Shown: piece by piece, positions 10,764 to 58,372 of the stretch
Position numbering within the stretch: the stretch's first letter is position 1
Layout: the number at the start of each line of letters is the position of its first letter
From: Tetradesmus obliquus
Lineage: Eukaryota > Chlorophyta > Chlorophyceae > Sphaeropleales > Scenedesmaceae
Length of the DNA stretch: 64,000 bases
NCBI GenBank assembly: GCA_030272155.1
Contig: CP126193.1
Span: 7,006,001-7,070,000, forward strand
Direction of reading: 5' to 3'
Notes under the pieces: model-generated
The model's input: the letters and a program-made list of their open reading frames with translations, nothing else
Database searches by the model: none
What the model was told of the DNA's origin: nothing
Translations under genes and position numbers: made by a program

Positions 10764-13186
10764 CAGCAGCGTGAATGCCCTCAATAGTGTGCACTGCTGG
10801 CTGATTGCTGTTGCTGCTGGTGCTGCTGCAGGCTGTTGCAGCAGAGCTTCTACGGATGTGAAGATGGCAGCTGCTGGGCCAGCAGGTGCGCTCGGCTGGC
10901 CTGCTATCATAACATCATGATGACGTTTGAGCATTGCTTCATGTGCTCAATCAGCCTGTTAGTTGCTGCCCAAGCAGGGGAGGTGGCCCAAAGCAAGGCA
11001 GCCAGCGGCAGGTGTGCTGCGACTGGCCTGCTACACTGTCCTTCTGCATTGCTTTCATTGCCCGATCAGCCTGTTGGTTGCTCGCCAAGCCAAGATCGCC
11101 GCTCAAAGCAAGGCAGCCAGTGGCTTAACAGCAGCTGGTCACAGGCACTGCACCAGCTGCAGCAATGTGCTGATCAGCGTGTTAGTCACCATGTCTGTTG
11201 TTACTCCCCTGCTCAACACGAACTGCCTGCACTGTATGGCTGTTGTGTCCTCGCTCCCCGCACTGCCTGCAGGTCGTGGCACTTCAACCGCGTACAGTGG
11301 CCGCCACTCATTGTGTGTACATGTGAGTGTCTGTTCTAACTCTCCTGCTCCCCACACTGCCTGCAGGTTGTGGCGCTTCAATCCTGTGCAGGGCGGGTCT
11401 CAAATTGTGCACATGTGAGTGTCTGTCGTTACTCCCCCGCTCAACACGAATTGGCTGCACTGTATGGCTGTTGTGTCCCTGCTCGCCACGCTGCCTGCAG
11501 GTCGTGGCGATTCAACCCTGTGCAGGGTGGGCCGTGGGACCACAAGCCCAGCCTCACCACTGCAGCAGCAACAGTACTGTGCTGATCGGCTGTATGGCTG
11601 TTGTGTGCTCGCTCCCCGCACTGCCTGCAAGTCGTGGCGCTTCAACCCTGTGCAGGGCGGGTCTCAACTGTGGACTTGTGCATGTTCTGACTCCCCTGCT
11701 CGCCACACTGCCTGCAGGTCGTGGCGCTTCAACCCTGTGCAGGGTGGGTCGTGGGACCACAAGCCCAGCCTGACCACGAGGCGCGAGGTGCACCACGCAC
11801 AGGGCAGCGTGTACGTGGAGGGGCACCCCAGGTGGGGGGGAAATGCGTCCAAAAAGGCATGTGCCTGCAGTAAAACCATCTTTGGAATGTGAAGGGTATG
11901 CCTTGTAGAACGCAAGAGTGCAGCGCTGAGTTGGGTTCAGGCAGCCGTTTGCTAAGTGGAGGCACAGGAGGCAGGGCGTCCATACACGCAGGGCACACGG
12001 TGCTCAGCTGCGACCAGCACCAGCTGAACACCTACTGCTACTTGCGCACCGAGCCAGAATCAGCCTGCTTCTTCTGCATGTGTTTTGCCAGTTGTGCTGC
12101 TGCTGCTGCTGCTGCTGCAGGAACTGGGGCAAGGGCACGCTGCTGCGCTCGGTGCACTTCACGCAGCACGCCCATGTTCACGATGACGTGGCAGTGCTGA
12201 ACTTCAGCGTGCATTATACCGGGAACTTCACACACCCTTACCTCACACATGAAGTTCCCGCTGTCTTCATAGACCGCCGCTTTGGCGTGCTGGCATATTA
12301 TGCTGGTGACAGACCCTGGACTAACGACAGGAACCTGAGTTACACTTTCCCGCCAGCCAGCAACATATACATGCCAACCACTGAGGGCTGGGCGGCTTAT
12401 TTGAACCCTGTCACTGGGTGGGGTGTGGGTGTTATGGCTCCGCATGCTTGGGCGGGGTTGACTGCCTACAGAGTGGGGCCAGACTGGAGCACTGCTCCTT
12501 CTGATTGCAGGTGCGGCAGTGCGGCCTTGCCCCTGCATCATGTGAATGACATTTGCAGCACTGCTGCATCTACAATTTCATGCAGCCAGGCTGTATGTGC
12601 ACTGTTCGGGTGCTGCAGTTGTCCTGCAGCTTTCAGCCAAGCAGCAAGTAGCGGTGGTGACATGAATGACTGCAAGAAACTTGTCTTGTAGGACCACCAC
12701 CAGCACACTTGTGATTTCACAGTACAACCTGCCCAGCATACACAGCAACCCACCATGCTGCGCCAGCTGCAGTCCAACCGCCACGAAAACGCAGCTGACG
12801 ACCCAATTCGCCTGTCTTACTGTTGTTGTCTTGTGCCGCTGCCTCTGCTGCCGCAGCTACTTTGCGCACACCATCCGCATGCAGCTGCATCCTGCCATGC
12901 GGCGCTACAGCTACAAAGTTTATGTCACAGTCGGCAGAATTGGCGCCATGCGGCGGCTGTTTGAAAAGGTTGCAAGGTTCCAGCCATACAAACGGCCAGC
13001 AGCAGACCCTGTAGCAGCACAAAATGATGCTGAAGAGTTGCGTGATGCAGAAGTGGTTGCGGAGCAGCAGCAGCAGCAGCAACAGCAGCAGAAGGCGGCT
13101 GGGTTTGAGGCCAAGCAGGAGCTGCTGGGGAGGAACCCTGGGCTGTTTGCAACAGGCAGTAGAAGCAGTGGCGCCAGCGGGGTAGC

Positions 13187-13221
<35 letters not shown>

Positions 13222-13232
13222 ATGCCAGCTAG
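9589..13232 (+). CDS. Secreted low-complexity protein, unknown chlorophyte family (copy A)
   Basis: Six exons: 9589-9710, 9913-10566, 10832-10885, 11718-11831, 12121-12510 and 12857-13232. All phases agree (570 codons with stop, 569 aa). A hydrophobic leader (MGRFCLLMVLLLLTSSLEY) predicts secretion. Ser/Ala/Gln-rich linkers follow, then a conserved domain: KIGLDVKRLGAVSWLSS, DRNLINVYDQGRLLQQSFYG, WRFNPVQGGSWD, YVEGHPRNWGKG, HEVPAVFIDRRFGVLAYY and WAAYLNPVTGWGVGV, ending in SYFAHTIRMQLHPAMRRYS. I do not recognise a catalytic motif or a named family. The regular strand-like pattern suggests a beta-rich extracellular enzyme or carbohydrate-binding protein, which is inference. The gene lies upstream of its paralogue at 14879. 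Unlike copy B, no C-terminal membrane segment is visible. The last two introns are phase 2 at the same sites as in copy B, but the middle introns differ. Confidence 0.8.
10705..10764 (+). repeat. AGC microsatellite in intron 2 of copy A
   Basis: A run of about 18 AGC units, with flanking AGT variants, lies in the intron 10567-10831. It is an exception to the usual CTG sense of intronic tracts in this window. Confidence 0.85.
10931..11116 (+). repeat. Two-copy 115-bp duplication in intron 3 of copy A
   Basis: GCATTGCTT, CAGCCTGTT, GTTGCT and AAAGCAAGGCAGCCAG recur in the same order at 10931-11012 and 11046-11116, an offset of 115 bp. The copies are diverged and no reading frame is kept. Confidence 0.7.
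11261..11831 (+). repeat. Exon-4 echo array of copy A (five copies)
   Basis: The acceptor and start of exon 4 (CTGCCTGCAG, then the codons for SWRFNPVQGG) occur five times, beginning at 11273, 11367, 11501, 11631 and 11718. Only the last runs into the full exon and a donor at 11832. The copy at 11501 extends furthest (through PWDHKPSLT). The copy at 11631 has lost the splice AG (CTGCCTGCAA). Spacings are 94, 134, 130 and 87 bp. Confidence 0.9.
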
Positions 13233-14878: not shown

Positions 14879-17800
14879 ATGGCACCATCGCGGGCCTACG
14901 TGGCAGTCTTGCTGTGCATAGCTGTTGTGCAATTCCCAGACAGCCAGGTTGCAGCGCAGTTCTTGGCGACCACATGCCCAAAGGTTGCACCAGCAAGGTG
15001 TCCTGGCTTATGTGCTAACACTAGAGCGCTAGCCAGAAGAGAACAGGGCACAGGCTACTGCACTGGCGCGCAGTGCAGCCGAATCTTGGCAGAGGCATCT
15101 ACTGCTGCAGCTGCAAATGGTCAAACAACGCAGCTGCAGCCCTCGCAGGACGCTCCAGCAGCTGCAGAAGTGCCTTGGTGGCAGCAGCAGCGCTTGCAGG
15201 AAGCACTTGCAGGAGCAGATGGGGGTGTGCCTCAGCGCGTGCTTCCCAGCCAGTATGCGTATGCAGATGAGCCGCAGGAGACGCCACAGCAGCAGGCAGC
15301 AATCATACAGCGCCTGCAGGACATGATGGATGCCAACAACAGCAGCGCGTGTGATGCAAACCAGGGCGCTTGCTCGGCCGATAGCAGCAGCACAGCCACT
15401 CCCAGCAGCAACAAGGAGCAGCAGCAGCAGCAGCAGCTGCCAGTCACTCGCCAAGCAGCGTCCTCGCCGTCATCAGCAGCAGTTGACAAGCCAGGCTCAG
15501 CCTACACTGGCCCTGACAGCCAAGTGACACGGAAGCTCACCTTCATATCTAACAGCAGGATCAAGCTGGGACTAGATATGGACAGGGCTGGTGCCATCAG
15601 CTGGCTGTCATCTCCTGTAGCGCCGGGGTTCTGGAGGGACAGGAACCTGATCAATGTGTGGGACCAGGGCCGGCTGCTGCAGCAGAGCTTCTACGGTGGG
15701 TGCTGTTGACACAGGAGTTCGCATTCTGCTTGCGATATATTGCATCTTGCTGTGTGGGGTCTGCTTTACTGCTTGCTGTACATGTAGTGCTCAACCTGTC
15801 CCGTGCATGAGAGGGAATGTGGTGGAACATCAAATGCTGGCAGTGGGCAGCATAGTGATGTGCATTAGCAATTCACTTGACAGAACATTTGAACGCCTGC
15901 GCGCATACATGCTGTCTGGGATACTATCCCTGACATGCTCCCCTTGTTTTTTGTGGCTGCACTGCTGTTTGCGCAGGCTGTGTGGATGGCTCCTGCTGGG
16001 CCACCAACCCCTGGCTGTGGACCCCTCTGCCTCTGGTTGAATTATCCATTGTAAGCAGGCCTCACCATTACTTCCGGTTTGTTGCTGTGCCGCAGGCTGT
16101 GTGGACGGCTCCTGCTGGGCCACCAACCCGTGGCTGTGGGACCGCTGTGCCTCATATCACACCACCCATAGTAAGCAGGCCTGATGCTATTCTCTACAAT
16201 TCATTGCCGCAGGCTGTGTGGACGGCTCCTGCTGGGCCACCAACCCCTGGCTGTGGAACCCCGTGCAAGGAGGCTCCTGGGAGAATGAGCCGGGCGTGAC
16301 ACTCAAAAAGGATGTGAAGCCATCACGGCTGTACGTGCAGGGGCATCCCAGGTAGGAGCTGCTGTTGGAGGCGCAAGCGAGCGGGCGCCTGCAGGCTGGG
16401 CTTTGAAGTGCTTTGCACCTGTGTTGCTTTTGTTATGACTCATCAAGTCACGCTGCAGGGCCTGTCGAGCACTGTGCATGCTTGCCCACCGCCTGCTACA
16501 GACAGCCTGCCCATTGTAATAGGAGTGTTGATGGCAGGCATACTCACTGCTGGCACCCCCTGCTGCTGCTGCTGCTGTTGCTGCTGCCGCCGCTGCAGGA
16601 ACTGGGGCAAGCAGGACCTCATCAAGTCTGTGCTGCTCACCAGCGACATAACCCTCAAGGACAATTACGGCATCCTCAAATTCGCCATGAAGTACACCGG
16701 CAAAGTTACACACCCCTATATGACGCAAGAAGTTCCCGCTCTTTTCGTGCACCGACGATTCAGCGTGCTTGCTTACTACCAAGGCTCCAGGCCCTGGACG
16801 AGTGACAAGGCGATAACCTACGCGTTCCCGCCCGGCCGCAACATCTACGCGCGCCCGACAGAGCACTGGGCAGCGTTTGTGGATCCTGCCACGGGCTTTG
16901 GAGTGGGGCTGTTCAACCCGCTTGCGTGGCATGGCATTACTGCGTACCGCATTGGGGAGGACGGCAGTGACTTGCCATGGGATTGCAGGTGGGCAAATGT
17001 CAAATTGCCTGGCGGCATTGCCGGCGATGCGTTGTCATAGTGACGCGTCTGACCTAGTGACGCTTCTGACCTGGTGACGCTTTTACCTGGTGACGCTTTG
17101 ACCTGATGATGCTGTCACCTAGTGACGCTTGGACCCAATTGTTCTCTAGTTCACGGCAACAGGGTTGCAGTGCAGCAGAGGCTTGCTGCAAAGCGCCTGG
17201 CAGCCAACATGATGTTCCTGAATCTCTTGAGAGTACCGCAATGCCATCACCAACTCCCGCACTGCCGTTACCCATGCGCGCTCCTGCCGCAGCTACTTTG
17301 CGCACACCATCCGCATGCAGCTGCACGTCAACATGCGCCAGTACAACTACACCGTGTACGTCACCACCGGCAAGCTGGATGAGATCCGGGCAACCTTCAA
17401 CAAGCTGCGGCTCACCCCTGGGGTCATGCCCAGCAAGTCTGCTGCTGCTCCAACAGATGCAGCAGCAGATGCAGCATGTGCCAGCTGCTTAGGGCAGCCC
17501 ACTTTGGGGAGGAACCCGGTGTTTGGGGTGCCTGCAAACTACAGCGCGTTTGACAACGTGGAGGCGGAGCCGCCACGCAGCGAGCCTTCAGGCAGCAGCA
17601 GCAGCAGTAGTGGGGGTAGTGCGGCAGCAGCAGCAACAGTTGTTGTTGGTGGGGCTGGGCAGGGTGCTGTCAGCTCGCCAGCATCAGCATCAGGGCTGCT
17701 GGTACAAATTGTGGGAGGGCTGGCAGGAAGCAGCAGCAGCAGCAGCAGCAGCAACGCATCCGATGCATCTGGCAGCGAAGGCAAAGCAGCTGTGTCGAGT

Positions 17801-20673: not shown

Positions 20674-21153
20674 CTATCTGCCTCGCCGAGGGCCCTTGCT
20701 GGTGCCCCGCACGAAGGCCCAGTTTATGTGGATGGTCTGCCCCAGCAGCTCAGAGCCATCAAGGCCCTTGATGGCCTCGCGCGCCTCCTTTTCTGTGGCA
20801 TACTCGATTAAAGCATAGCCCTTGACGTAACCCGTCTGGCGATCGAGGTTGAGGTAGACGTTCTTGACGTCGCCATAGTCTGCGAAGGCCTCTGCCACAT
20901 CCTCTTCCTGCGCCTCCTCATGCAGGCCCGTGACGAACAGCACCCATCCCTCGACTGACTTTGCTGGCCCGCTGCCGCCCGCGGGCTCCAGGGCCTCGTA
21001 GCGAGCATTGCCGTCACCCTCCTCCCGCTCAGGCTCGTGGAAGCCCCTGCCTTTCTTCTTGCCTGCGCCTGCTACTACTGTACTCCTGATCCGCTGCTGC
21101 TGAGGCTCCTGCTCTTCCTCCATGTGCTCGGGGCCATCGCCATGATCAGACAT
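20674..21153 (-). CDS. RBM8A: Y14 / RBM8A RNA-binding protein of the exon junction complex
   Basis: A 159-aa protein from a single exon. It has an acidic N-terminus and a KKKGRGF basic patch. One RRM spans about residues 67-149, starting SVEGWVLFVTGLHEEA, with RNP2 (LFVTGL) and the RNP1 position occupied by KGYALIEY, followed by a short basic tail (GPRRGR). This matches animal and plant Y14, which heterodimerises with Mago nashi in the nucleus, is left on spliced mRNA upstream of exon junctions, and acts in export, localisation and nonsense-mediated decay. The ATG at 21153 was chosen because the longer frame begins with TTG. It is the only intronless, echo-free gene in the window, so a retrocopy origin is possible, but no poly(A) trace is seen downstream. 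The flanking genes are unrelated. Confidence 0.93.
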   Translation of the reverse strand: MSDHGDGPEHMEEEQEPQQQRIRSTVVAGAGKKKGRGFHEPEREEGDGNARYEALEPAGGSGPAKSVEGWVLFVTGLHEEAQEEDVAEAFADYGDVKNVYLNLDRQTGYVKGYALIEYATEKEAREAIKGLDGSELLGQTIHINWAFVRGTSKGPRRGR

Positions 21154-22549
21154 ATTGTTGTGCTGTGCTAGGAGGGTGGCCAAGCAGGGCAGCTACAAGC
21201 ATTCACAGCAGCTGCAGACAGCAACCAGCTGCCCCATCAGGGCGATCAAAGCAGCGGGTGTCACTTCGCGCTCAAACAGGTGAGACCTAAGGAGTAACAG
21301 CAGCAGAACAAGGGCCAGTGCCTGTGATCGCTCGAGGAAGACAGCAGACGATCTCAAGCAGCTTCATTGCTTTTGTTCACGTGTTTGTGTTGTTTTACGA
21401 CTGCTTCCGTGTGGTGCTGTTGTACTGCAGCATGCTAGAGCTAGCTCCTAGCTCTGCCACTTTCTGCTGCAGTCACTGCAGCACATGCATCACCACTTTT
21501 GGCCTGCTTGTCTACACGAGGATTTGCATCTATTTACACAGCAAAACGTCGCTTGTGATGAACGGCCATTGCTGCTGCTGGCGCAGAGCAGCTGCCAAGT
21601 GCAGGTGCAGCCTAGCTGCTGGACGCACGCAGCAGCAGCAGCACACAGTAACCCTGCTTGAGGCAGTTGCTCAGCAAGGTAGGGCTTCTGACAGGCATAT
21701 CACCGCGTGTAGATGTGACATACTACCAATATGCATCAGCACCGACAGCATGCACTGTGCAAAACTTCTTTGGGCTAGGTGTGTTCACACTGTCAGAACA
21801 TCATGACCATCATGCTGCTGGTTACGCTCCCAGCAGATAGCCAGCAGTCATCAAGTGCAGTGCTTGCTGGTTCAGCATGCTGCTGGGCCACGTCATAAAA
21901 GTGACACAGATGCACCAGCAGCGGTGGGAGGCCCATGCACTTGCGGCGTGAACATGGTAGGGGACGGTTCATGTCCGCAGCAGCTGCAGCAACAGCCGCT
22001 GCAGCCACAGCAGCAGTCTGTCCACCACAGTCGAGCTATATTTGCTCTTTGCTAATGCAGCCCAGCCACATAAGGCAAACACACAGCAGCAGGCTGAATC
22101 GGCTGTCTGCAAATCTGCACAGACCACCTGTCAACAGGTGGCAGCTACCACTGCTGCAGCACACCCTCGCCAGGCAATGCCCAGACAACTCGCAATCTGC
22201 TTTCAACTGTACTCACAACACTCTCCTAGCTCTGCCTCTGCCCTTGCCACTTCCAATGCCGCAAATACCCGGCAATTGATCAAGCTGTGGTATCTAGCAG
22301 GCCAGGCCGCACCACCCACTCCCTGCTTACATTGCTGCAGCCGCAGCTGCTACAGGAATGCAGCCGCCTTGCTCAGCGCTCCACCCAGGCCAAGCCGCTT
22401 GGTGTGGTGCGCAACACAGGGTGCAACAGACCGCTGCAACCGAAGCGGCAACTGTTCGATGTACCGCGTGAAATACACGCGGCACATGCACAGACAAGAA
22501 TGTCTGCAAAATCAACGCCTCCTGCTGTTGCTGCTGCTCCTACTTCCGC
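21154..22549. other. Intergenic, nothing recognised
   Basis: This covers the upstream side of Y14 and the downstream side of DUF4336. A TTACA (minus-strand TGTAA) at about 22326 could serve as a poly(A) signal for DUF4336, although it is over 500 bp past the stop. Open frames contain no known domain. Confidence 0.45.
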
Positions 22550-22990
22550 TGCATGTCTTCACCCAACAAGTTTGCTCTCCCCTGCGGCTGCCATCGCTGC
22601 TTGCTGCTGCTGCCATCGCCGCTTGCTGCTGCCGATGCCTGCACGCTCCTCTGCACATGTGAAGACCACCGAGTACTTCAAGTTGAACAAGTTTCCCCTC
22701 CCCTGCTGCTGTCACCGACGCTTGCTGCTGCTGCTGCTGCTGCCGATGCCTGCACGCTCCTCTGCGTCTGTGAACACCACCCGGTACTTGAACAAGTTGT
22801 CTCTCCCATGCTGCTGTCACCGACGCTTGCTGCCGCTGCTGCTGCTGCTGCTGCCGCTGCTACTGCTGCTGCTGCTGCTGCTGCTGCTATCACCGACGCT
22901 TGCTGCCGCTGCTGCTGCTGCTGCTGCTGCTGCTGCCGATGCCTGCACGCTCCTCTGCGTCCGTGAACACCACCCGGTACTTGATCAGCA
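22550..22990 (-). repeat. Exon-8 echo array of DUF4336, reaching past the stop codon
   Basis: The sequence coding for KYRVVFTDAEERAGIG (22938-22990) is repeated downstream of the stop at about 22745-22800 and 22635-22695, with a remnant near 22550. The copies are separated by pure CTG/GCTGCC tracts. They lie in the probable 3' UTR and do not extend the frame. Confidence 0.85.
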
Positions 22991-23990
22991 GCTGATTCAG
23001 CCCCTTGAGCACTTTCACATCAGCCTCAGGGAAGCCGTCACCTTCACGCCGTGAAGTTCCCTTCACTGCCACCTTGGACTGTGAACTTCCGCCCAGGAAG
23101 CCGAAGAGGCTGCTGAAGGGGTTGCTGCCGCTGCTGCTGCTGCTGCCGGCCCTGCTGCTGCTGCTGCCGGGGTTGCGGCCGACTTGATCGTACACGAAGC
23201 GGAACGCTTCCCGGAACTCTGCTGGGCCTGCGGGCGCAACGAGAAAGCATGGGTACACAAATCAGCTGCTTGTATTGGGTCACTGTCACCAATGATTGGC
23301 CGAGGCAGGTAACACATGTCGTTTCATGCTGTGTGCATGCACAGCTGCTGCGGTGTGTGCGTGCGTGGACTGTGTGGTTTTGACTGTACATGCACAACTC
23401 CGCCTCACGCCCTTCTGAGCGCTCTCTCGGCCACTCATCACACCTGCTTTCACTGGCGCCGAGAAGTGTGCCGGGATGATGCGCTCGAAGCGCCAGTCCG
23501 CGCACATGCTGTCCACCCAGTCGCAGACCGTGTTGGGGATCTTGTCGTACACCAGCGTGCGCACCACAGGGCCCACCAGCAGCCGCCGGCTGATCGCATC
23601 AAACGAGGCCTGCGGCGTCAGCAGATCTGCAGCAACAGCAGCAGCAGCAACAGCAGCGGTAGAGGCAGTGTCAGGTGGAGCGTCACCACGGGGCCCACCA
23701 GCAGCCGCCGGCTGATCGCGTCAAATGAGGCCTGCGGCGTCAGCAGATCTGCGGTGGCAGCAGCAGCAGCAACAGCAGCGGCACAGGCAGTGTCAGGTGG
23801 AGCGTCACCACAGGGCCCACCAGCAGCCGGCGGCTGATCGCGTCGAACTAGGCCTGCAGCGTTAACAGATCTGCGGCAGCGGCAGCAACAGCAGCAGCAG
23901 AGGCAGTGTCAGTCTGAGTGTCACCACGGGGCCCACCAGCAGCTGGCGGCTGATCGCATCGAATGCGGCCTGCGGCGTCAGCAGATCTGC

Positions 23991-24024
<34 letters not shown>

Positions 24025-27000
24025 AGTGGTGAAGATGTCATTTTTCAGCTGTGTTGCAACGCTGGAGCATATGCCATCCACCACAGGACAACAGCAACAG
24101 GTGCAACAGCAAACAGCTGCACACGGCCGATTTAAGTCCTACCTTCTGTTCAAAACCTAACAACCATTTTCCGGCAAAGCATACAGAACAAAGCATGAAA
24201 TACATACACAAACGCACCTGTGGGGTTGAAGTACAGCACCAGCAGGCTCATGCGCGCCCAGGCGGTGCGGCGCGCCTCCCGGCAGACATAACAAAGCATG
24301 AAATACATACACACACGCACCTGAGGGGTTGAAGTACAGCATCCAAGAGACACTTGTCTACCAGGTGTGGGCGCTAGCATGCTTGCTTTACATTTCAATG
24401 CAATCAAGCGTTGACATCTGAATACAATTAAGTGTATGCCCACCAGAGGGGTTGAAGTACAGCACCAGCAGGCTCATCCGTGCCCAAGCGGTGCGGCGCG
24501 CCTCCCGGCTGTCCTCGACGCGCTCGCTGCGCGCCACCTCTGATATTTCCTGCCTGCTGCGGCCGCCCGCCAGGTAGCGCTGCAGCCAGCCGTCCTGCGC
24601 CTGGCTGCGCAGCGCCTGCAATGTTTGGGAGGTTTGCGGCGTTCAGGGGAATGCACGTAGGATTGGTAATGATGGCGGTACATTACGATGAAAACCACTC
24701 GCGCGTGGCGGGGCTGAACAGCTGAATCTCTCAGCATGTTGCACCAAGCATCACAGGCAGTTGCTGCGTGGTGAATGCAACTCTGCAGCCGCATTGCGGC
24801 TCCTCAGCCCTTCATCACCAACACTGTATAACAGGAACACAGCAACACTGAACACACACAGTTCATGCAGCAGCAGCAGCAGCAGCAGCAGATCACCTCA
24901 TGGGGAATGCATGCTGCCAGGTCATCATCCACGTACATGACTGCATTGGTCACCGCATCAACTGATCATGCCAAAGCTAAGTGACAGCGTCATTCAGCAG
25001 CAGCTCACATCGTCAGGGATGCAGGCTGCCGGGTCTGTGTCCACATACATCGCATCTGTCACCAGCCGGCGGCTGGCAAAACACAAAGAAACAAGTGCGT
25101 AAAATCGGCAGCTCACCTCATCAGGGATGCATGCTGGCGGGTCCACATCCACGTAGACCACTGCATCAGTCACCAGCAGGCTGCGGGAGGGCTTGTGGAA
25201 GAATGCCACCTCTGTGAACTTGACCACCTTGCTTAGCCCTGCTGGCAGCGTGGCAACCGCAACATGCAGCAGCAAAGAAGAACAACAGGGGTTACAACAG
25301 GTTGCAATGGTGAAAAGCACATCACATGCTAGTCACAAAGGTGAGAGCACACCAGAAGCTCAGCCTTGGCTTCATGGAGGTGTTACATGACATGTTACAT
25401 GTTACATGACAAGTTGTAGTCACCCTCACCCACCGATCTGTGGCGGCAGCAGCACCTTCTGCTCGATCTCATCGCCCCAGGGGGTGGAGGTGTCGTCAAT
25501 GCATCACAACCTCACAGCGCAGCCTGGCATAACATGTTACTTACCATGTCACATGACATGTCACATTGTTACTCACCGATCTGCGGCGGCAGCAGCACCT
25601 TCTGCTCGATCTCATCGCCCCAAGGCGTAGTGGTGTCACCGTCAGCCAGCTCCCCTGCAGGGAAGATGCCCAGCCACTCATTAGGCAGGTTGAGCGGCAG
25701 GCTCCACTGCCCTGGCGCCACATACACCTGGCGGCAGCAGCAGGTGAGGTGCAAACGTAAGCCATGCACCGAAACCACAATATGCACATGGCTATACACT
25801 GCCATGCACTTCTCTGGCTGCTGGGGGCGTCACATCTTAACGGCCCACACAGAGTACGCCAGTAACATGTTGTAACATATATCATAACGTTCAAGCACAA
25901 CTGTGGCGCACCTTGGCCTTTGGGAAGCGGCGTGAGAAGGGCGCCACGAAGACCTTGTGCTCATACGCAAAGGTGACACAGTTGACTAGTAACAAGTTGT
26001 TTTGAAGATGTCATAATATCAAAAGTAACATCATATTGACGTACCTTGGCCTTTGGGGAGCGCCGTGAGAAGGGCGCCACGAAGACCTTGTGCTCATACG
26101 CAAAGGTGGCACAGTCTACCAGCGACATGCAGTTATGACACTGTCATCAAAATGAGGAGTATCATAACAAACAACACACCTTGGCCTTTGGGAAGCGGCG
26201 CGAAAAAGGCGCCACGAAGACCTTGTGCTCATACGCAAAGGTGGGCAGCACGATGTACTCCACTGGCGCATCCAGCTCCTTCAGCAGGTTGATGCACTCC
26301 TGCAGCAGCAGCAGCAGCGGCAGCAGCACCAGCAGCAGCTCCGTTTATATGGCAGTAGTGTTACAGTATTCACCTAACAGCGGATGTGGTTGATGCCCAG
26401 GTGCTGGCCCTTCCAAAAGCACTCGCTCTCACGTGTACTGTTGCGCAAGGCGATGGCCTGCGGCGACGCTGATGGCGTTGAATCATGCTGCTGCTAGCCC
26501 TGCTGCTGTGTCATCTCTGCCCCTCCATGGCAAGCTCATCACTTTGCTGCTCTGCCAAGTTTCAAACTGTATTCACAAGGTTTAAACAAAAAGTTAGGGC
26601 GCTGCCAGTGCTGCCTGCACCTGTGTCGGCGCCACTGGCGCATGCACCCAGAGCCCGCCCGACTTGAGCTTGATCACTGTCATGCGCACGGGCGTGAACA
26701 CATCGAAGAAGAAGGCCTGCGTCTGCTCGAAGGTCCACACCTGGCCCTTCACCACCTGCGGCAGCATATTTTGCAAGATACTTTGACAAAGAGAAGTGCA
26801 TATGGCAGCATGTCTGCTCAAAGGTCCACACCTGGCCCTTCACTACCTGCGGCAGCAGTTCGTACACAGATGGTTCAGAGTATGTTGACACAGGGTGTTG
26901 CTTATGGCTGCATGTCTGCTCAAAGGTCCACACCTGGCCCCTGACAACCTGCGGCAGTGCATTTGGCAAGACAGCTGCTTGATTTGAGCCTGGCCCCAAA

Positions 27001-27198
27001 GTCTGACAGCCGCTGCAGGGCGTGCCAGCAGCTGCTGCCATCCCAACACAGCCGCCGAGCAGTGCCTGGGCGGCCCTTCCCAAGGTCCTTAGCACTGCTG
27101 CTGCTGCTGCTGCTGCTGCCGCCGCCAGAAGCGCTGGCAACAGCCTGGGTCGACGGCTGGCAGCACAGCATGCTGCTAGCCAAAGACTTGCGCCGCAA

Positions 27199-27234
<36 letters not shown>

Positions 27235-27732
27235 ACTGCTGGTGCCTTGACCAAAACCAAGCTGGCAAGCAGCACATGAGAAGCAGCAGCGCAGGCCTCT
27301 GCTGCGTCGACTTGAGCTGTGCTGTGCTGTGCCGCGCTGTGCTGTGCTCTGATGACTACGCACCTCGTTGCGGACAGTCTTGCGCGCAAAGAAAGGGCCT
27401 AGTGGGAAGGGAAATCCTGTGATGTTGAAGTAGAACCTGCTGCCACGCTTTTTTGACTGCTGCTGCTGCTGCTGCAGCGCTGCCTGCTGCTCCCGGCCCC
27501 GCACTGTCTTGGTGCCGCTGACAGTGCTGCCGCGCTGCGTTTTCGATGATACTGTGCTGCGCCCCTTAGCTGTTGCGGCTTGCTGCTGCTGCTGCTGCTG
27601 CTTTGTGGTGACTTTGCATTGTACTGGCAGCACCGGGCGCCTGCTGCTGCGGTGTGCTGCTGCAAGAGGGGCTGCCGGAGCGTGAAGCATGTGCATGCTG
27701 CTGCTGCTGCTGCTGCTGCTAAACCTCTGCAT
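22890..27732 (-). CDS. DUF4336 domain protein, probably organelle-targeted
   Basis: Eight exons: 27732-27364, 26755-26621, 26299-26180, 25727-25577, 25238-25117, 24615-24444, 23626-23444 and 23227-22890. Phases agree throughout (530 codons with stop, 529 aa). The Ser/Arg/Gln-rich first 100 residues resemble a transit peptide. The DUF4336 body (residues about 110-440) includes PVRMTVIKLKSGGLWVHAPV, VEYIVLPTFAYEHKVFVAPF, VYVAPGQWSLPLNL, EVAFFHKPSRSLLVTDAVVY, MSLLVLYFNPSG and WRFERIIPAHFSAPVKA. This family is distantly like metallo-beta-lactamase-fold proteins and its biochemical role is not established. The C-terminal 90 residues carry Ser runs. The gene is transcribed away from SbcCD at 28623, with 890 bp between the start codons. 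Seven of its eight exons have truncated copies in adjacent introns or the 3' region. Confidence 0.9.
23570..23993 (-). repeat. Exon-7 echo array of DUF4336 (four copies)
   Basis: The acceptor and start of exon 7 (CTGCAG, then codons for DLLTPQASFDAISRRLLVG) recur with acceptors near 23627, 23748, 23870 and 23989, spaced about 119-122 bp. Only the innermost copy (23626) continues into the full exon. A CTG tract on the coding strand precedes each one. Confidence 0.92.
24210..24480 (-). repeat. Exon-6 echoes of DUF4336
   Basis: The 3' end of exon 6 plus its donor (RRTAWARMSLLVLYFNP, then a GT donor) is repeated at about 24216-24287. A shorter piece (LYFNPS) lies at 24320-24343. Both are downstream of the true exon end at 24444. 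Confidence 0.88.
24893..25117 (-). repeat. Exon-5 echoes of DUF4336
   Basis: The exon-5 end (TDAVVYVDVDPPACIPDE plus GTGAGC) recurs at about 24998-25070 and 24893-24960. Each copy keeps a donor GT after the DE or equivalent codons. Internal substitutions show that the copies have aged. Confidence 0.88.
25432..25640 (-). repeat. Exon-4 echo of DUF4336
   Basis: The end of exon 4 (PWGDEIEQKVLLPPQIG plus donor) has one copy at about 25432-25498, next to TGTTACATGACA-type short repeats at 25384-25410 and 25530-25575. Confidence 0.87.
25911..26243 (-). repeat. Exon-3 echo array of DUF4336 (three copies)
   Basis: The exon-3 end (FAYEHKVFVAPFSRRFPKAK plus donor GT) is present at 26180-26243, 26045-26107 and 25912-25975, spaced 135 and 133 bp. 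Identity is very high, so these duplications look recent. Confidence 0.93.
26385..26466 (-). other. Unexplained exon-like fragment in intron 2 of DUF4336
   Basis: On the coding strand a good acceptor (GCCGCAG) is followed by an open stretch reading AIALRNSTRESECF and then WKGQHLGINHIRC. It ends in a stop directly before GTGAAT. It has codon-like composition and no CAG tract, but it is not part of the DUF4336 family between exons 2 and 3. I cannot assign its source. Confidence 0.4.
26730..26960 (-). repeat. Exon-2 echo array of DUF4336 (three copies)
   Basis: The acceptor and exon-2 start (CCGCAG, then codons for VVKGQVWTFEQT) occur with first coding bases at 26755, 26845 and 26948, spaced 90 and 103 bp. 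Only the copy at 26755 leads into a complete exon. Confidence 0.92.
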
Positions 27733-28622: not shown

Positions 28623-29462
28623 ATGCAGCAGCGCGCCATGAGGTGCAGCAGCAGCGCAAGCAGGGTGATCCCAAGCAATGGGGCCATGCAAGCACACATG
28701 CTCAGGCAGGCACACGTGTGCTTAGCCACCACCACCACACCAAGCAGAACACGCAAGCGTGCAACTACTCGCTCGCCAGAACCAGATGCACCCAGCAGCA
28801 GCAGTACAATCCCCAGTCAGGTTCCTGCAAGCCCTGCAGGACAGCAGCAGCAGCAGGGGCAAGTGCAGTTTGGCCAACCGCCAGATGCTGCTGCCTTTGC
28901 GCCTGCCAACGGCTGGGTAGTGTTTTCAGACCTGCACATGTCTCAGAAGACAATGGGAGTGGCGCTGCAGACGCTGCAGCGAGTGCACAAGGAGGCAAAG
29001 GAGAGGGCAGCTGGCGTGCTGTTCCTGGGTGAGGCTTGCAGGAAAGCAGCTGGCTTGCAGGAAAGCAGCTGCCTTGCAGGAACCACTGCAGCGCTGAGAC
29101 ACAAGTGTCTGGTCTAATGAAGCATGCTGCTGCTGGCATAGGTGTGCATTTCCCTTCTGGCCGCGTAAGCACAGCTGATCATATGCTTGAATGAAGCATG
29201 TCGATCAGTTTGCCTATTCTTACGCAGGACACGCAGACTGCAGACGGCCCTGCAGCTCGTATGATTGCTCAAAACAATTTGATGGCGAGTAACGGCCACT
29301 GCCACCATGACTTGTGCCTTGTTGTTTTCAATGCAGGTGACTTCTGGGACCGGCGGGGTGACCTGCCAGTGGTCCCGCTGAACAAGGTGCAGCAGGAGCT
29401 CAGCAGCTGGCATGTGCCGCTGCTACTGCTGCCCGGCAACCATGACCAGGTGGGTGCAGCAC

Positions 29463-29515
<53 letters not shown>

Positions 29516-32500
29516 ACGCTTGCCATAGCAGCAGCAGCACTTACCGTGGCGTCACAAGGCTTACTTAGCGGCTGCGCCTGGCCGCCACAGACGTTTGGCA
29601 GCAGCAGCGGAGTATTCCGCAGCAGCGTTTGCCGTTGCGTGTTGTTGCTGACATGGCGGCTGCACCTGCTCGCCTGCTGCTGCAGGTGGACCTAGGGGGC
29701 GAGCAGCACTCGCTGTACTCGCTGCAGCTGGCGGCACGCTGCGCACACGTCTTCACGCAGCCCACGCTGTTTAAGTGAGTGCGCATGTGTGCCTCCTGTG
29801 CTGCCTTATGCTCGAAAAACAGCAACAACGTGAACAGATGTTTATGCAGCCTACACTGTTCAAGTGAGCAGGCTGCTGCACCAAGCAGTGGCTGGCACAT
29901 TCAAGCAGTGGCTGGCACATTCAACACAACACCATGCGGGCATGTCATGCTTCACAACGGCAGTGTAGTGCTGCTGCGAGAGTGTTGTTTGCATGCTGCT
30001 CTGCAGTTGCGCTGTGCGGCTGCGCCTGCAGGCGCACACTCTGTCACTACATCTGCTGCCTTGGCCGCATTCATGTTAAATTGTGGCTGCGCTCGCTGCC
30101 TGCAGGGATGCCCTGTGGCTTCCGTACCGCCGCGACGAGGGCGCCGTGCGTGATGCAATCGAGGCTGCGCAGCGCCAAGGACCCCTCAAGGCCATCTTTG
30201 GGCATGCTGATGTGGTGAGCCCACCTGCGCATTTGCAAATTGTTACTGTCATATGTGCCCACCTTGTTGACTTCGTCTGCATGTCGATCTTCACAATTAC
30301 AGTGACGCTGTGTGTCCAGCAATGCTGTACAAGCACATTGACGCGTGCCGCACTGGGACTATTGATCTTGGGGCAGCAGTCTGCACACACTCAAGTTCAT
30401 CTGCTGCTGGCCTACAGCATGTGGCTGCAAAATTTGTATACGGTATCTTTGCTGCAGCTAGCGGCTCAGATGAACGCCTCCTCAAAGCACACGCCACTCC
30501 ACTAATGGGTTGGTCAACAGATTTTATGTTACTACATAATCTTGAATGATTTTTGCATGTGGCTGCAGCTGACGGCTCACATGAACGCCTCCTACCAAGC
30601 GCGTGACGGCCTGCCGCCAGGCTTGTTCCCTGGCCGCGTGCCAGTGTACCTAGGTCACTACCACTACCCGCACACACTACCTGGGACAGCCATCACATAC
30701 ATTGGTTCACCTTTCCAAGGTGAGCTTTGCCAGTAAGCAGCGTTGTCAGTGGAAATGCTGTGTTCAGGCTATTGCCACTACCCGCACACACTGCCAGGGA
30801 CAGCCATCACATACATATGCTTGCCTTTCCAAGGTGAGCAGTGCTGTGCAATACAAATCAACGTGACAGCTGTGGCTAGGCCACTACTGCTACCCACACA
30901 TAGTGCCTGGCATCGTCCTTCACATACGTCTGCTCGCCTTTGCAGGGTGAGCTCTGCCAGTTGGCAGCGTTGTCAGTGGAGCAGTGTTGTATTCAGGCCA
31001 CCTGTTGCACGCATACATCAGCTTCTGCCACAGGCTGCCGCAAGCGACACAGCCACCACAAAAGCATGTACCCTGTTTTCTCAAACATGTGCTGCATGTA
31101 TCTCTGTGGCATGTATTGCCGCACGTTCTGCTGCTGTATGTGCAGTGTCTGCAAACGAGGCCGGTCAGCAGAAGCGGCTGCTGCTGCTGGATGGGGACTG
31201 GCAGCAAACAGGGGAGGTGCCGCTCGATCTTGGACGGCGCTTCTTTGCCTTTGCTGCACCAGGCACCACCAGCAGCAGCAGCAGCATCGTCAGCGGCAGT
31301 GATTCAGACAGCGCTGTAGCTGCCGATGCTGCTGCTGCTGCTGCTGCTGCTGAAGGTGGTGATACAAGTGACACCACTGACTCAGGAGAAGTGGATTTTA
31401 GTGCAGCTGGGCCGGGGGGTTTGAAGTCACTAAGCCCCGAGGTCATCAAGGGTTTGATACAGCAGGGGCAGCTGCGGAAGGGTGATGTGGTGGTGCTGAG
31501 GGCAGCAGAGGACAATGAGGAGCTGATAGCAGCACAGAAGCTGCTGCATAAGCACGGTGAGCGCTGTGACTTGCTGTCCAGGTCATCATGTGTGGTGCTG
31601 CTGCGCTTAGTGTGCTGCTGTGGGCTGCTGTGTCAGCTGCATGGTGCTGTTCACTGCGCAGCTGTTATGTACTGTTCCGCACTGGTCTGAGCCCGGGCAT
31701 CGCCACTTTTCATGCCGCTATGTAAACATCGGACGCTAAGTCTGTGGTGCACACTACGTGGACCCCCGAGCCCTGCTCTGCTGTGTGTGTCTCTGTCTGT
31801 TTTTGCATCTCTTGTCTTGTTTTCTTCCATTTGCAGGTGTGGAGGTGAGCCTGCAGCTGCAGCCCGCCTCACGGCCCGCCGCGCGCATCGCGGCCGCGGA
31901 GCAGCTCAGCATGCAGCAGCTGCTGGAGGAGTACGCCGCAAACACAGGCATGGACCAAGAGGTGCTGGCCCTGGCGCGTGGCGCGCTGCAGGTGGGGTTT
32001 GGGGGGTTGTTGCGACACTGTCAGGCGCACTGCAGGTGAGACCGGCACAGTGCAGCATCACATAGATTGGTAATAGGCATAAATGATGCACCAACTGCTT
32101 GAGACGCTGACAGCAAACACGGGCATGGACCACGAGGTTCTGGCCCTGGCACGCGGCGCACTGCAGGTAAGTGCTTCTTCATTTGCTGCTAGCTGGGTGG
32201 CAGCACCTCAGTTTTCACAGCTACGCACGTGACGTTTCTGCTTCCTACGCAATAACAAAGTTACACATGGCTAGGTGCAGTCGTGCTCAGTGCACAGTAT
32301 CTGTGCTGCATAACCAATTGGCCATGCTCCTAGCAGGCGGGCCTCAGAAGCTCCCAGCGACAGCCGCCCGGTGCTGCAGGCCGCGACTGTGGAGGGCTCT
32401 GGCCCTTTTATAACCCCAATATGCTTCTAACTGGCTGAATGAGATAGAGGGGTGACACGGTGTGTTAATGCAGCATACGCCACCACAGACAACACAGACA

Positions 32501-34628: not shown

Positions 34629-34670
<42 letters not shown>

Positions 34671-37227: not shown

Positions 37228-37269
<42 letters not shown>

Positions 37270-38139
37270 TGCGGGGATGCAGACTCCTTCACCACACCCA
37301 GGGGTGCTAGTGCTTGAGTTTGAAGCGCTGGTGAAGCAGCTGTGTGATGCCAGCGGCAGCCTACGTCACAGCATACTAGATCATGCTGATTCCCTGGTGT
37401 CTGCGCGCAGCAAGCTGCAGCAGCTGTCTGCTGCGCTGAATCCGCATGCCTCGGAAGTGGGGCTGCTGCAGCAGCTGGTGGGTGAGAAGCAGCAGCAGCT
37501 GCAGGAGAACCAGCAGGGGGTAGAGGAGCTGACCAAGCAGGTGAGGTTGTATGGTTATTGCTGGCTAGTTGTCTGAAAGCGTGGTGCATATTGTGTTGAT
37601 AGTGTCACTGCTGGGGTTGCTTGAACTTGGAAGTGGCTGCCTTGCTGTTGTACAATGTTCAATGCTCAGCGTATTGATACGCAACTGCTTGGCACCCCGT
37701 CATTCCACCGTTGAGTACCGTGAGTGGAATTGCAACGGGTTCTGCTGCTGCTGCTGCTGCTGCTGCTGTCACTGCTGCTCGTGCTGCTGCAACCAACAAC
37801 ACAAATGCATATCTGTGTCACCAGGTGTCGCTGTGGCGGCGCGTGGACGCTGCCTTTGGCCGCACCGGCATTCCTTCCTTCATGCTGGAGTCCGTTCTGG
37901 GTGAACTTCAGGCCGCCTGCAGCCGCCACCTGGGGAAGCTCGCAGTGGGAATGAGCCTGGAACTCTCAGCCACCAGCGAGAGGAAGACCGTGAAAAGCGC
38001 TGCTACTGCTGGATCGACAAAAGGCAAGAAGAAGGCTGCTGCAGGCAGCAGTAAGCGGGGCAAGGGAGCTGCCGCCAGCAGTGCCGAGCTTGATGACAGC
38101 TCAGATGCAGATTTGTCTGACTCAGACACGGCTGCCGAC

Positions 38140-38187
<48 letters not shown>

Positions 38188-38958
38188 TCAAGTGTCTCTG
38201 GTGCAGCAACGCTCAAAGAGGAGATCTCAAAAGTAATCAGAGTGAGGGCCGCGGGCGGAGAGATGCGCCGCCGCAGCGTGGCGCAGCTATCTGGGGGAGA
38301 GAAGAAGCGTGTGGCGCTGGCGCTGGGTTTAGGGTTTGCTGAGCTGGCGGCTGCGCGGTCACGGCTGAGCAGCAACGTGCTGGTGCTGGACGAGGTGAGA
38401 GGCCCTGTACTGGGCGGCGGTGCAGCATGCTTTCTTGATTTGTTTTTTCTGCAGAAACCAGGCTGGCTGCGCAGATGTACAGCAATGCAAGTGCATGTTT
38501 GTGGTGCGGTTGTGCTGTGCTGGTCTGGAGCTGTTTGGAGGGAGAAGCAGCGAGTGGCGCTGGCGCTGGGGCTCAGGGTTTGTTGAGCTGGCGGCTGAGC
38601 TGGCGCGGCTGAGCAGCAATGCGCTGGTGCTGGACGAGGTGAGAGGATGATAGTGTACTGGAACTGTTAAAAAGTGTATGTTATATGCTGGTGGCAGGGG
38701 TGTGGTGTGCTGTGCTGCACAACAGCTGCTTCGAGTGCCGTGGTGCAAGGCCTAGTTCAGTGCTGTAAGCTTCTCTAGCCTGCCATGTTTCAGGCGGTCA
38801 GCTGATGGTGAGCACTATGCTAAGGAGTTAGGCATGCTATTGCCTGCCGCTCTTGCGTTATGGCAGCATAGGTAGACAGAGAGATAGAGAGTTCGGTTGT
38901 TGTTGCATTGCGTGCCTGCGACTGATCCTCACAACGCTGCCGCCGCCACTGTTACCAC

Positions 38959-39004
<46 letters not shown>

Positions 39005-39206
39005 GCCGCAGGTGCTTGAGAAGCTCGATGAGGAGGGCTGTGCCTGCGTGGCGGCGCTGCTCAAGGGTCTGCCCTACAGCAGCGTGTTTGTGGTGGGGCA
39101 GGCCAACAGCTTTGTCACGCGCGAGTTTGCCAGCGTGGACACAGTCGTGAAAGCAGGCGGCTGCTCGCGCGTGGAGATTGGGGCAGCGCTGCCGGCACAG
39201 CAGTAG
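28623..39206 (+). CDS. Fused SbcD-SbcC (Mre11/Rad50-like) nuclease-ATPase
   Basis: Sixteen exons: 28623-29028, 29337-29449, 29686-29774, 30106-30214, 30569-30719, 31146-31556, 31837-31991, 32648-32866, 33211-33300, 33593-33790, 34700-34927, 35163-35821, 36134-36454, 37123-37540, 37825-38394 and 39012-39206 (1443 aa). The nuclease half has DLH (103-105), GDFWDR (136-141), GNHD (169-172), GH (235-236) and GHYH (268-271). The ATPase half has a Walker A SNGAGKT ending near residue 540, a Gln-rich coiled coil, a CEQC zinc hook (929-932), a second coiled coil, the LSGGE signature (1344-1348), Walker B LVLDE and a C-terminal VGQANSF. Such complexes process DNA ends and hairpins. SbcC and SbcD, like Rad50 and Mre11, are normally separate proteins. 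The first 100 residues look like an organelle transit peptide (inferred). The ATG at 28623 was chosen because the longer frame starts at GTG. Confidence 0.92.
29462..29516 (+). repeat. CAG microsatellite in intron 2 of SbcCD
   Basis: About 17 CAG units lie directly after the exon-2 donor, one of the few intronic tracts in the CAG rather than CTG sense. Confidence 0.85.
29844..29872 (+). repeat. Exon-3 echo of SbcCD
   Basis: CAGCCTACACTGTTCAA followed by GTGAGC repeats the exon-3 end (QPTLFK plus donor) 93 bp downstream of the true donor at 29775. Confidence 0.75.
30449..30966 (+). repeat. Exon-5 echoes of SbcCD on both sides
   Basis: Upstream, the exon start (CTGCAG, then LAAQMNAS) is copied at about 30450-30486. 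Downstream, the exon end (HYHYPHTLPGTAITYI, then SPFQ plus donor) is copied at 30766-30838 and, more diverged, at 30880-30958. The true exon is 30569-30719. Confidence 0.88.
32101..32172 (+). repeat. Exon-7 echo of SbcCD
   Basis: The exon-7 end (ANTGMDxEVLALARGALQ plus donor) is repeated 175 bp downstream with GTAAGT as its donor. Confidence 0.88.
32321..33006 (+). repeat. Exon-8 (P-loop exon) echoes on both sides
   Basis: The start of exon 8 (SEVPPHSRLVLQ and VEGFGPF region) has a decayed copy at 32321-32409. Its end (AVSNGAGKTSLLTALLWAF plus donor) has a near-identical copy at 32936-33004, in which AGKT has become AGKI. The functional exon is 32648-32866. Confidence 0.9.
33394..33450 (+). 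repeat. Exon-9 echo of SbcCD
   Basis: Codons for YLNDSKKASVVVAA repeat the exon-9 segment YVNEDSKKAAVTVIG about 150 bp downstream. The copy lacks an evident donor. Confidence 0.75.
33741..34206 (+). repeat. Exon-10 echo array of SbcCD (four copies)
   Basis: The exon-10 end (SSLLPKTLVFTQEDLLALLQ plus donor GTGGG) occurs with exon ends at 33790, 33908, 34055 and 34201, spaced 118, 147 and 146 bp. The first is the functional exon end. The third also includes EQLLQARF. Confidence 0.92.
34328..34770 (+). repeat. Exon-11 echo array of SbcCD (four copies)
   Basis: The acceptor and exon-11 start (CACAG or ATCAG, then SGDAAFKSLLSSIVDTDC) begins at 34336, 34435, 34557 and 34700, spaced 99, 122 and 143 bp, with CTG tracts between copies. 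Only the last continues into the coiled coil. Confidence 0.92.
36778..37175 (+). repeat. Exon-14 echo array of SbcCD (four copies)
   Basis: GCAGTGACCTGGACAGCC and the following codons for DSLKWLANE occur four times at a spacing of about 111-117 bp, first near 36778. Each unit also carries GCTGCAATGGCTGCTGCGC-type intron sequence. Only the last copy (37123) opens into the 418-nt exon. Confidence 0.93.
38537..38640 (+). repeat. Exon-15 echo of SbcCD (signature motif to Walker B)
   Basis: The exon end coding for EKKRVALALGLGF, ELAA, RLSSNVLVLDE plus donor is copied at 38537-38638 with one frame-changing difference. It lies 245 bp after the true exon end at 38394. Confidence 0.9.
38959..39011 (+). 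repeat. CTG tract forming the 3' splice site of SbcCD exon 16
   Basis: About 14 CTG units, then CCGCCGCAG, lead directly into the last exon. It is a clear example of the acceptor-adjacent CTG tracts of this window. Confidence 0.85.
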
Positions 39207-52120: not shown

Positions 52121-52171
<51 letters not shown>

Positions 52172-54575: not shown

Positions 54576-54646
<71 letters not shown>

Positions 54647-55547: not shown

Positions 55548-56235
55548 ATGGTTCAATGGTGCAGCTGCTGTTGTATATCAGCCTGATGACCAGAGGGTGC
55601 TTCAGAGGCTGTGCAGCAGCAGCAGCAGGAGCAGCAGCAGCAGCAGCAGCAACAACATCAATGATTGTGTGCTGATGAGCCTGTATGTTGTGTACATCAT
55701 GCAAATGATTTGCTTAACCCGTGTGTCGCGCTCTCACGCCAGATGTGAAGAGTCATCATCATCATCACGCCAGATGTGAAGAGTGTGGTGGTGTTCTGGT
55801 AAATGAGTCAGAATGCGACCTGAGAACATGACGAGACTGGCTGTGCGAGTGCCGGCGTAGGTTTCAAAGTGTTTCCTGCAACTATTTGCACCCAGTTGTC
55901 AGGCCCTGGTGTGCGCTGGGGTCCTAGCCGGACACAGATACACAGCTGCTGCAATGCAGACACTGTTCATATGCTTGCCTTCCTTGCTTTGTTGGCGTGC
56001 AGTCATGTGAAAAAAGGATCAAACTGTATGATTCATTTAAAGCGGGAGTGAGTGTGCAGGGGACTGCACAGCTTTCGGTCAGAAACAGTCAGTGCGCTGT
56101 CACGTGACAGTCAGAAAGATTGTTCCTGACATATTCTGCTTGCCTGTTTCATGTGGTCCGTTGTGTGCATTATAGCTCGTGTACAGTTTTAAGGGTACAA
56201 GTCACGCGTTTGATCACTTCAAGGCAGCTGTTGCC
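55548..56235. other. Intergenic after MYND copy 3
   Basis: A short CAG tract at 55612-55650, a 27-bp repeat (CACGCCAGATGTGAAGAGT) at 55735-55785, and nothing else recognised. Confidence 0.45.
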
Positions 56236-57740: not shown

Positions 57741-57789
<49 letters not shown>

Positions 57790-58150
57790 TTGCTGCTGCT
57801 GGCCTGCAGGTTCGACAGAGGGCTACAAAATCTCGTATGTGTCTCATGACTTTGCAAATGCCACAGATGCTCAGGGCGCTCACATTGGCCTGAACGTAAC
57901 CACCACAGTGCGCGTCGGCATGCTGAAACCCGGCGCCCCAGGCACAAATGAAATGATTTACGACATCAGCAACAGCTCCTTCCCTCTGGTAAATGGCCAG
58001 ATCAGAAACAGGCTCCTGGGAAACACAGATGTTGGCAGCACCAGGAAGATCGGAAGGGGCCAGATGCTGCACAGCATCCAGGAGTGGCAGAACCTGGCCA
58101 ACTGGCTGCAGCCTGTGTGGGCCGCCAACAAAGCCAAAATGCCTGCATAG
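56236..58150 (+). CDS. Secreted protein of unknown function inside the MYND array
   Basis: Three exons: 56236-56489, 56920-57320 and 57810-58150, in matching phases (332 codons with stop, 331 aa). A leader (VAASLACCLLIAFCICC) predicts entry to the secretory pathway. The mature part contains PLDPSDFPELTDRLPTP, VYWLYRNLHKRVKYP, LFQLLHPVDHLSM, DWYLKYLPTRVTNTVLQLSI, YVSHDFANATDAQGAHIGLN and MLHSIQEWQNLANWLQPVW. The HPxDH and HIGLN segments give a weak impression of the DAPG-hydrolase (PhlG-like) family, which cleaves carbon-carbon bonds with zinc, but I would not assign it without a profile search. Exons 2 and 3 follow introns that end in CTG tracts. The stop at 58150 coincides with the border of a 133-bp tandem repeat, so the original C-terminus may have been different. 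Confidence 0.78.
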
Positions 58151-58372
58151 GCTGACAAGGCATGTCAAGAACGTCACGAGGATTGGCACAGGCATGCTGC
58201 TGCACAGCATCCAGGAATGGCAGAACCTGGCAAACTGGCTGCAGCCTGTGTGGGCCGCCACAAAGCCAGAATGCCTGCATAGGCTGACAAGGCATGTCAA
58301 GAACATCAGGAGGATTGGCTCTGGCATGTTGCTGCACAGCATCCAGGAGTGGCAGCACCTGGCAAACAGACA
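58037..58372 (+). repeat. 133-bp tandem repeat at the 3' end of the 56236 gene (three copies)
   Basis: CTGCACAGCATCCAGGAGTG, then codons for NLANWLQPVWAA, are present at 58068, 58201 and 58333, spaced 133 and 132 bp. The first copy is coding. The second and third lie past the stop and include GCTGACAAGGCATGTCAAGA at their borders. They are 84-95% alike by eye, which suggests recent duplication. Confidence 0.9.

Follow-up and report, generated by a model that had tools for sequence, protein, structure and literature searches.

Tandem copies of exon ends at exon-intron borders in genes of Tetradesmus obliquus

In a 64,000-nt stretch of the Tetradesmus obliquus genome (hereafter the window; C3:7006001-7070000, GenBank contig CP126193.1, in a parent genome of 104.66 Mb in 17 contigs), short segments containing one end of an exon together with the adjoining intron recur as tandem arrays, leaving partial copies of exon ends, here called echoes, beside the exons they resemble. 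These exon-end echoes are real, and they are not limited to the window. What we observe are the arrays themselves, their direct orientation, their excess at exon borders under a null of our own, several signs that the echoes are not used, and a pattern of differences by codon position. The reason for their location at exon borders is only partly explained, and the codon-position pattern in copies that are apparently unspliced remains an unexplained puzzle. The arrays are best classed as tandem genomic duplication of a kind that spans exon borders, frequent in the genes examined and marked by this unexplained codon-position signature.

Gene models in the window (GC 52-62% per 2-kb bin) came from a weakly retrained ab initio model; a fully self-trained version strayed into CAG-rich false introns. 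Donors in these models resemble CAG/GTGAG and acceptors TGCAG/G (the slash marks the splice site). The exons of the DUF4336 gene were hand-picked from the ab initio model with echo-like predicted exons excluded, and those of the SbcCD-like gene were hand-picked and merged by hand at two places; both names are those of a first-pass annotation made from the sequence alone. For CCT genes, exons were defined by spliced alignment of solved CCT protein chains through the introns. Seven of the ten CCT/cpn60 loci fetched were curated, leaving out CCT6 and two cpn60 loci (L031, L036, and L037), and four tiny exons (3-7 bp) in the spliced alignments were dropped along with their adjoining introns. The resulting nine curated genes (seven CCT genes, SbcCD, and DUF4336) provide 92 exons, and 80 introns whose ends could be used. 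HSP70 genes were assessed from profile matches alone. Repeat pairs consisting mainly of CAG/CTG-type matches were dropped before every DNA repeat count, and codon counts exclude SbcCD exons of ambiguous frame, with 11 window borders kept.

All nine curated genes, located on seven contigs, contain arrays. Six of the seven CCT genes lie on contigs other than that of the window, with L032 being on the same one. Repeat pairs in the curated genes are almost always direct (231, versus 2 inverted), and the shortest period has a median of about 116 bp (5th-95th percentile 87-179 bp). An echo of a flanking exon end is present in 50 of the 80 introns, coming from the donor side in 36, from the acceptor side in 32, and from both in 18; for the seven CCT genes alone, with 58 introns, the tally is 27 on the donor side and 29 on the acceptor side. 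In CCT7 (L032) echoes are almost absent, with none from a donor side and 1 from an acceptor side in 7 introns. Self-comparison of the window gave 166 pairs, or 97 after removal of the CAG/CTG type, of which 45 direct and 3 inverted pairs lie less than 4 kb apart and 49 lie farther apart. Of 20 further 10-kb stretches, spaced 1 Mb apart on contigs C1-C4, 14 likewise contain one or more direct pairs under 1 kb, and 1 contains near inverted pairs. The repetition is visible at the protein level from Pfam searches as well, with no recourse to DNA comparison. A Cpn60_TCP1 search of the genome returned 76 matches, with several exons recurring as partial matches in the adjoining intron, and an HSP70 search returned 69 matches with the same recurrence at three exons by our reading of the list. 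On C17, for example, an HSP70 match to positions 159-224 is preceded by partial matches to 158-182 and 159-182.

Divergence among copies is graded in several genes, as the first-pass annotation had described, and mean identity per array in the curated genes ranges from 70 to 100%. Tandem repeats are error-prone in assemblies, but an assembly artefact is hardly credible as the source of arrays whose copies mostly differ in this way and which occur in every curated gene, on seven contigs, and in most of the further stretches. An array at L011 2627-2959, with two full copies and a partial third at a period of 137, is 100% identical throughout and appears to be a very young duplication.

The nine curated genes hold 92 arrays. 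Between flanking modelled exons there are 74, comprising 34 donor-border, 32 acceptor-border, and 8 intron-only arrays; the other 18 were left unclassed (8 outside modelled exons, 4 that span a modelled exon entirely, 4 that flank a first or last modelled exon on its outer side, and 2 beside dropped exons). The concentration at borders claimed in the first-pass annotation is borne out, with 66 of the 74 arrays straddling one border where random placement would give 24.9 (P printed as 0.0000 from 20,000 draws), under a null of our own construction in which exon-internal and whole-exon duplications are selected against, a minimum is assumed for the intron part, and intron length before duplication is estimated. 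Among arrays with a best identity of at least 88%, 35 of 39 are at borders (13.1 expected). Masking the exons gave 54 intron clusters: 17 in contact with a border, 32 connected to a border array, and 5 confined to the intron. For the 20 further stretches, where exons come from a poor ab initio gene model, the excess is weak, with 25 of 33 arrays on a predicted splice edge against 18.3 expected. The exon share of the unit is 28-100 bp (5th-95th percentile). The border excess is strong under our null but may be partly due to detection, since intron parts diverge faster than exon parts, and with exon parts recognisable for longest, detection favours copies that contain exon.

Ordinary tandem duplication of about 115 bp followed by such filters might produce the whole pattern. 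Duplications would fall at random, exon-internal ones would be purged, and intron-only ones, with neither copy constrained, would decay past detection sooner, with no need for a special mechanism or for diverged homologs. Selection and detection both act in the observed direction, and the position of the border in the unit (mean 0.48, sd 0.16, 66 arrays) scatters, by our estimate, about as widely as minimum lengths on both sides would produce. The extents of acceptor and donor arrays on the same exon look independent, and the border excess in the further stretches is weak. Filters on their own nevertheless appear somewhat unlikely to suffice, given how strongly the arrays of at least 88% identity keep to borders, how far clusters touching a border outnumber intron-only ones with exons masked, and the third-position pattern described below, which they leave unexplained. 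We also considered that acceptor-side and donor-side arrays might jointly fill one exon, and rejected this after a shuffle test (P=0.39, 15 exons) gave extents as expected by chance. A splice site is apparently not required for an array to form, since two arrays read across coding ends, one in the window (Table 1) and one at L037 5390-5583, whose two copies read as an identical C-terminal peptide that ends in a stop codon.

The duplicated unit appears to have included intron in some of the arrays. Of 64 borders at which the spacer between copies was aligned with the sequence beyond the second copy, 28 showed weak similarity (p<0.05) and the other 36 showed none that could be detected, which indicates that the unit included intron at least in the former and that this intron has diverged far more than the exon part. 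Intron parts of exon-echo pairs show 21.7% differences plus many gaps. Young two-copy pairs are separated by about 20-46 bp in which no repetition is visible, and by as much as 85 bp where the shift is longer.

The exon parts differ in a manner that follows the reading frame. Differences between exon and echo amount to 5.0%, 3.8%, and 19.5% at codon positions 1, 2, and 3 (about 4.4% at positions 1 and 2 together), and those between echoes to 6.9%, 8.1%, and 20.1% (107 pairs). Changes private to one echo, scored where at least 2 other echoes agree with the exon, are likewise biased toward the third position (30:39:62 of 1058:1052:799 sites). The third-position level varies little, lying at 17-23% across position-1/2 differences of 0-14% in 124 echoes, and it is uncorrelated with intron divergence (rho 0.003, 58 pairs). 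The 32 of these 124 echoes that have no change at position 1 or 2 still differ at 16.8% of third positions, so exon and echo are not simply a parent and its fresh copy. The flat third-position level and the absence of a link to intron divergence are as expected if the copies begin from different alleles. We infer that the simplest origin of the codon pattern is other alleles, acquired via exchange or repair between diverged homologs, and for much of their history the exon parts of echoes were apparently working exons. Neutral turnover within a single lineage, with exon and echo switching roles, was simulated with 30 parameter sets and rejected; the ratio of third-position to position-1/2 differences was at most 1.9, and third positions differed by 0-7% in echoes without a position-1/2 change.

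A repair process anchored at the border itself would tie several of these features together. A break in or near an exon would be repaired by invading the homolog only in the conserved exon, copying would pass the border into the intron, and end joining would leave a tandem copy. Such a process would jointly explain units with a single border, the border excess, and an allelic difference at birth, and it is consistent with arrays at coding ends. Our literature search on one-sided invasion combined with tandem duplication turned up only targeted insertion in maize, however, and we consider this proposal decidedly unlikely.

Echoes generally retain their splice dinucleotides, in agreement with the first-pass annotation. 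Of 45 donor echoes, 44 still carry GT, and of 43 acceptor echoes, 40 still carry AG, with 65-84% identity in the neighbouring intron bins. This has the look of selection, but neutral copies with about 4.4% change would by our arithmetic retain about 41 GT and 39 AG, so the retention is near the neutral expectation. An earlier favourite of ours, in which echo half-exons are spliced in via a mid-exon AG/GT, was dropped after the sequence at the unit edge showed no enrichment of a matching GT/AG pair (12 of 132 echoes, versus 14 of 132 at an interior control); among constrained echoes, GT faces AG at the unit edge in 3 of 36, compared with 6 of 36 at the interior control. Amino-acid replacements in echoes are near random (mean BLOSUM62 -0.35, versus -0.51 for random changes; n=265), and there are 4 stops where a neutral rate of 4.4% would give 8.2. 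Of 132 echoes, 22 have an indel in their exon part, with 15 of the 16 tallied not being a multiple of three, and 26 of 132 echoes have either a stop or an exon-part indel. The frameshifts, the near-random replacements, and the lack of an enriched mid-exon splice pair together suggest that echoes are mostly not translated. A regulatory role is unsupported, as is the exon nursery raised as a possibility in the first-pass annotation, with splice-site survival about neutral and no enriched GT/AG pair that would let an echo replace an exon half.

Actual use in RNA by a route we have not considered remains the main functional alternative. Some echoes could be spliced into mRNA, either replacing the exon end or beside it, and be held under selection at the protein level as alternative partial exons. 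The third-position bias in all three kinds of comparison (exon-echo, echo-echo, and echo-private) would follow naturally, as would the retention of GT and AG, the small number of exon-part indels, and the echoes without any position-1/2 change. Such use is nonetheless unlikely in view of the unit-edge counts, the near-random replacements, and the frameshifts, and were an echo included together with its exon, residues of conserved CCT proteins would appear twice.

The explanation that we favour, tentatively and at a little short of an even chance, is short tandem duplication with turnover, taking place partly between diverged homologous chromosomes. Short direct tandem duplications would keep arising within genes. 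Exon-internal duplications and most whole-exon ones would be lost through selection, and units spanning one exon-intron border or a coding end would leave the original splice site usable and hence survive, as would intron-only units. Expansion and contraction of arrays would then yield two to at least five copies. The exon part would stay recognisable as the intron part diverges further, which would make the border look like the centre of the unit. Copies would most likely derive from diverged homologous chromosomes through unequal exchange or homolog-copied repair in a diploid that is hybrid or of high heterozygosity, and over time an exon and its echo would exchange roles. The echoes would be mostly absent from mRNA, and are probably in the main unused leftovers of duplication. 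PMC12636532 cites a Tetradesmus obliquus that is diploid, extensively heterozygous, and possibly a hybrid, and for a related diploid Scenedesmus PMC7955037 gives haplotype scaffolds paired at >95% identity.

Several observations weigh against this explanation. A divergence of about 17% at third positions between alleles would be extreme when set beside the identity of the Scenedesmus haplotypes. The third-position bias of echo-private changes implies that coding constraint acted on echoes during some of their history, for which neutral copies alone are insufficient. Over all exon-echo changes pooled, 340 lie in codons whose amino acid is altered versus 604 expected at random, and stops number 4 versus 16.4 expected. 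Indels are far rarer in the exon parts of echoes (15 in 4217 sites) than in intron (202 in 3637 sites). Intron-only arrays are below expectation even with exons masked, and 4 of the 92 arrays span a whole modelled exon. The array at exon 3 of CCT1 (L029 1697-2203) is incompatible with any simple history, being a two-unit block with 0 substitutions in 50 intron bases (2-3 gaps) and 9 differences in 22 third codon positions. A bolder account, to which we assign a low probability, would treat exon ends as cassettes, in which partial-exon copies at each border trade places with the working end, so that unspliced copies show coding-type evolution and serve as a standing reservoir of variants.

The arrays can be compared with several known systems. 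Introners, associated with intron gain driven by transposons, are units of about 100-200 bp found in introns. They resemble the echoes in unit size and in being intronic, and they differ in forming dispersed families, whereas the repeats described here copy the local exon. A single 1-kb stretch of the window (20000-21000, containing none of the listed arrays), when compared with the genome, gave its self match and 13 short weak matches. Mutually exclusive tandem exons are coding copies beside an exon, with a splice site and with divergence at third positions, all of which applies to echoes as well. In mutually exclusive exons, however, every copy comes with two splice sites and an intact reading frame. 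The echoes comprise just part of the exon, show no enrichment of a second, matching splice site, and include frameshifted copies, with about a fifth of echoes carrying a stop or indel as counted above. Repair from paired nicks or one-sided invasion yields short direct duplications, and in this respect it would resemble the process behind the arrays. In the AGGT model of intron gain by tandem duplication, the duplicate supplies both the donor and the acceptor of a new intron, and the unit-edge count given above was no higher than its control.

The first-pass annotation knew of no named phenomenon that matched the arrays, which overstates the case. PMC3443670 names tandem genomic duplication as a process, and the close copies in direct orientation that mark it are what we find. 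The closest precedent is the potato RdRp gene, in which a duplicated stretch crosses an intron-exon boundary (PMC4974935). Both cases are direct tandem duplications within a gene that carry splice signals across a border; in potato, one event gave rise to a new intron, whereas here a border is spanned by 66 of the 74 classed arrays, spread over nine curated genes and frequently multi-copy, with no new intron shown. No description of pervasive border-spanning arrays was recognised in our literature search, with most subscription journals lying outside its reach. If the pattern is general, border-spanning tandem duplication would contribute much of the sequence and length of introns in this lineage, and introns would be filled with decoy splice sites. 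These would offer many natural cases of spliceosome choice among nearly identical sites and would mislead gene finders, as happened here when ab initio models called echoes exons.

Within the window (Table 1), arrays were recovered at the same number of DUF4336 exons as first reported, 7 of 8, with each array crossing one border. For the SbcCD-like gene, arrays had been reported at 9 of 16 exons; they are present, but at the threshold used they involve 6 of the 16 modelled exons (7 borders, plus one intron-only array), with the rest below threshold or absent. The arrays reported at exons of copies A and B were found, and that of the 56236 gene is present as well, although it reads as the end of a coding region and not as a splice border. 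No self-comparison pair overlaps the Y14 frame, which had been described as free of arrays.

Table 1. Arrays and related features of the window (positions within the window)
Feature	Position	Strand	Remarks
DUF4336 gene	22894..27526	-	Eight exons modelled, ab initio, hand-picked
DUF4336 exons	27364-27526, 26621-26755, 26180-26299, 25577-25727, 25117-25238, 24466-24615, 23444-23609, 22894-23227	-	
DUF4336 exon 2 acceptor-border array	26721..26971	-	35 bp exon; shifts 102, 193; AG retained by both echoes
DUF4336 exon 3 donor-border array	25904..26244	-	65 bp exon; shifts 135, 268
DUF4336 exon 4 donor-border array	25386..25637	-	61 bp exon; shift 143
DUF4336 exon 5 donor-border array	24883..25187	-	71 bp exon; shifts 111, 220
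DUF4336 exon 6 donor-border array	24179..24509	-	44 bp exon; shifts 103, 226
DUF4336 exon 7 acceptor-border array	23562..24022	-	48 bp exon; three echoes
DUF4336 exon 8 (last modelled) donor-side array	22565..22987	-	94 bp exon; outside the 74 arrays of the null
SbcCD-like gene	28840..39206	+	16 exons modelled
SbcCD exon 5 donor-border array	30637..30998	+	83 bp exon
SbcCD exon 7 donor-border array	31911..32168	+	81 bp exon
SbcCD exon 8 acceptor-border array	32338..32739	+	92 bp exon
SbcCD exon 8 donor-border array	32797..33007	+	70 bp exon
SbcCD exon 10 donor-border array	33704..34219	+	87 bp exon; three echoes
Intron-only array, intron after SbcCD exon 10	34301..34755	+	Counter-example to the border pattern
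SbcCD exon 14 acceptor-border array	36776..37169	+	47 bp exon
SbcCD exon 15 donor-border array	38285..38646	+	110 bp exon
Copy A array, exon start repeated ahead of exon 11718-11831	11192..11777	+	Exon ab initio only
Copy B array, exon start repeated ahead of and inside exon 16213-16351	15972..16262	+	Exon ab initio only
Array of period 133 (56236 gene), reads as coding end, stop, and 3' flank	58039..58396 (coding-end reading 58042-58367)	+	Our reading of the sequence
Y14 reading frame, array-free	20677..21192	-	Name from the first-pass annotation

Copies A and B are tandem paralogous genes (9927-18256, plus strand), and an apparently homologous exon in each has an acceptor-side array, which points either to recurrent origin or to concerted evolution. 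A large serine/alanine/glutamine-rich repetitive region occupies 39700-63900 (plus strand), where the ab initio model chains many short exons; it has few arrays, and its gene models are unreliable. A short tandem repeat resembling TTTAGGG lies at 3418-3471, internal to the chromosome, and its motif is one that we take to resemble plant-type telomere repeats.

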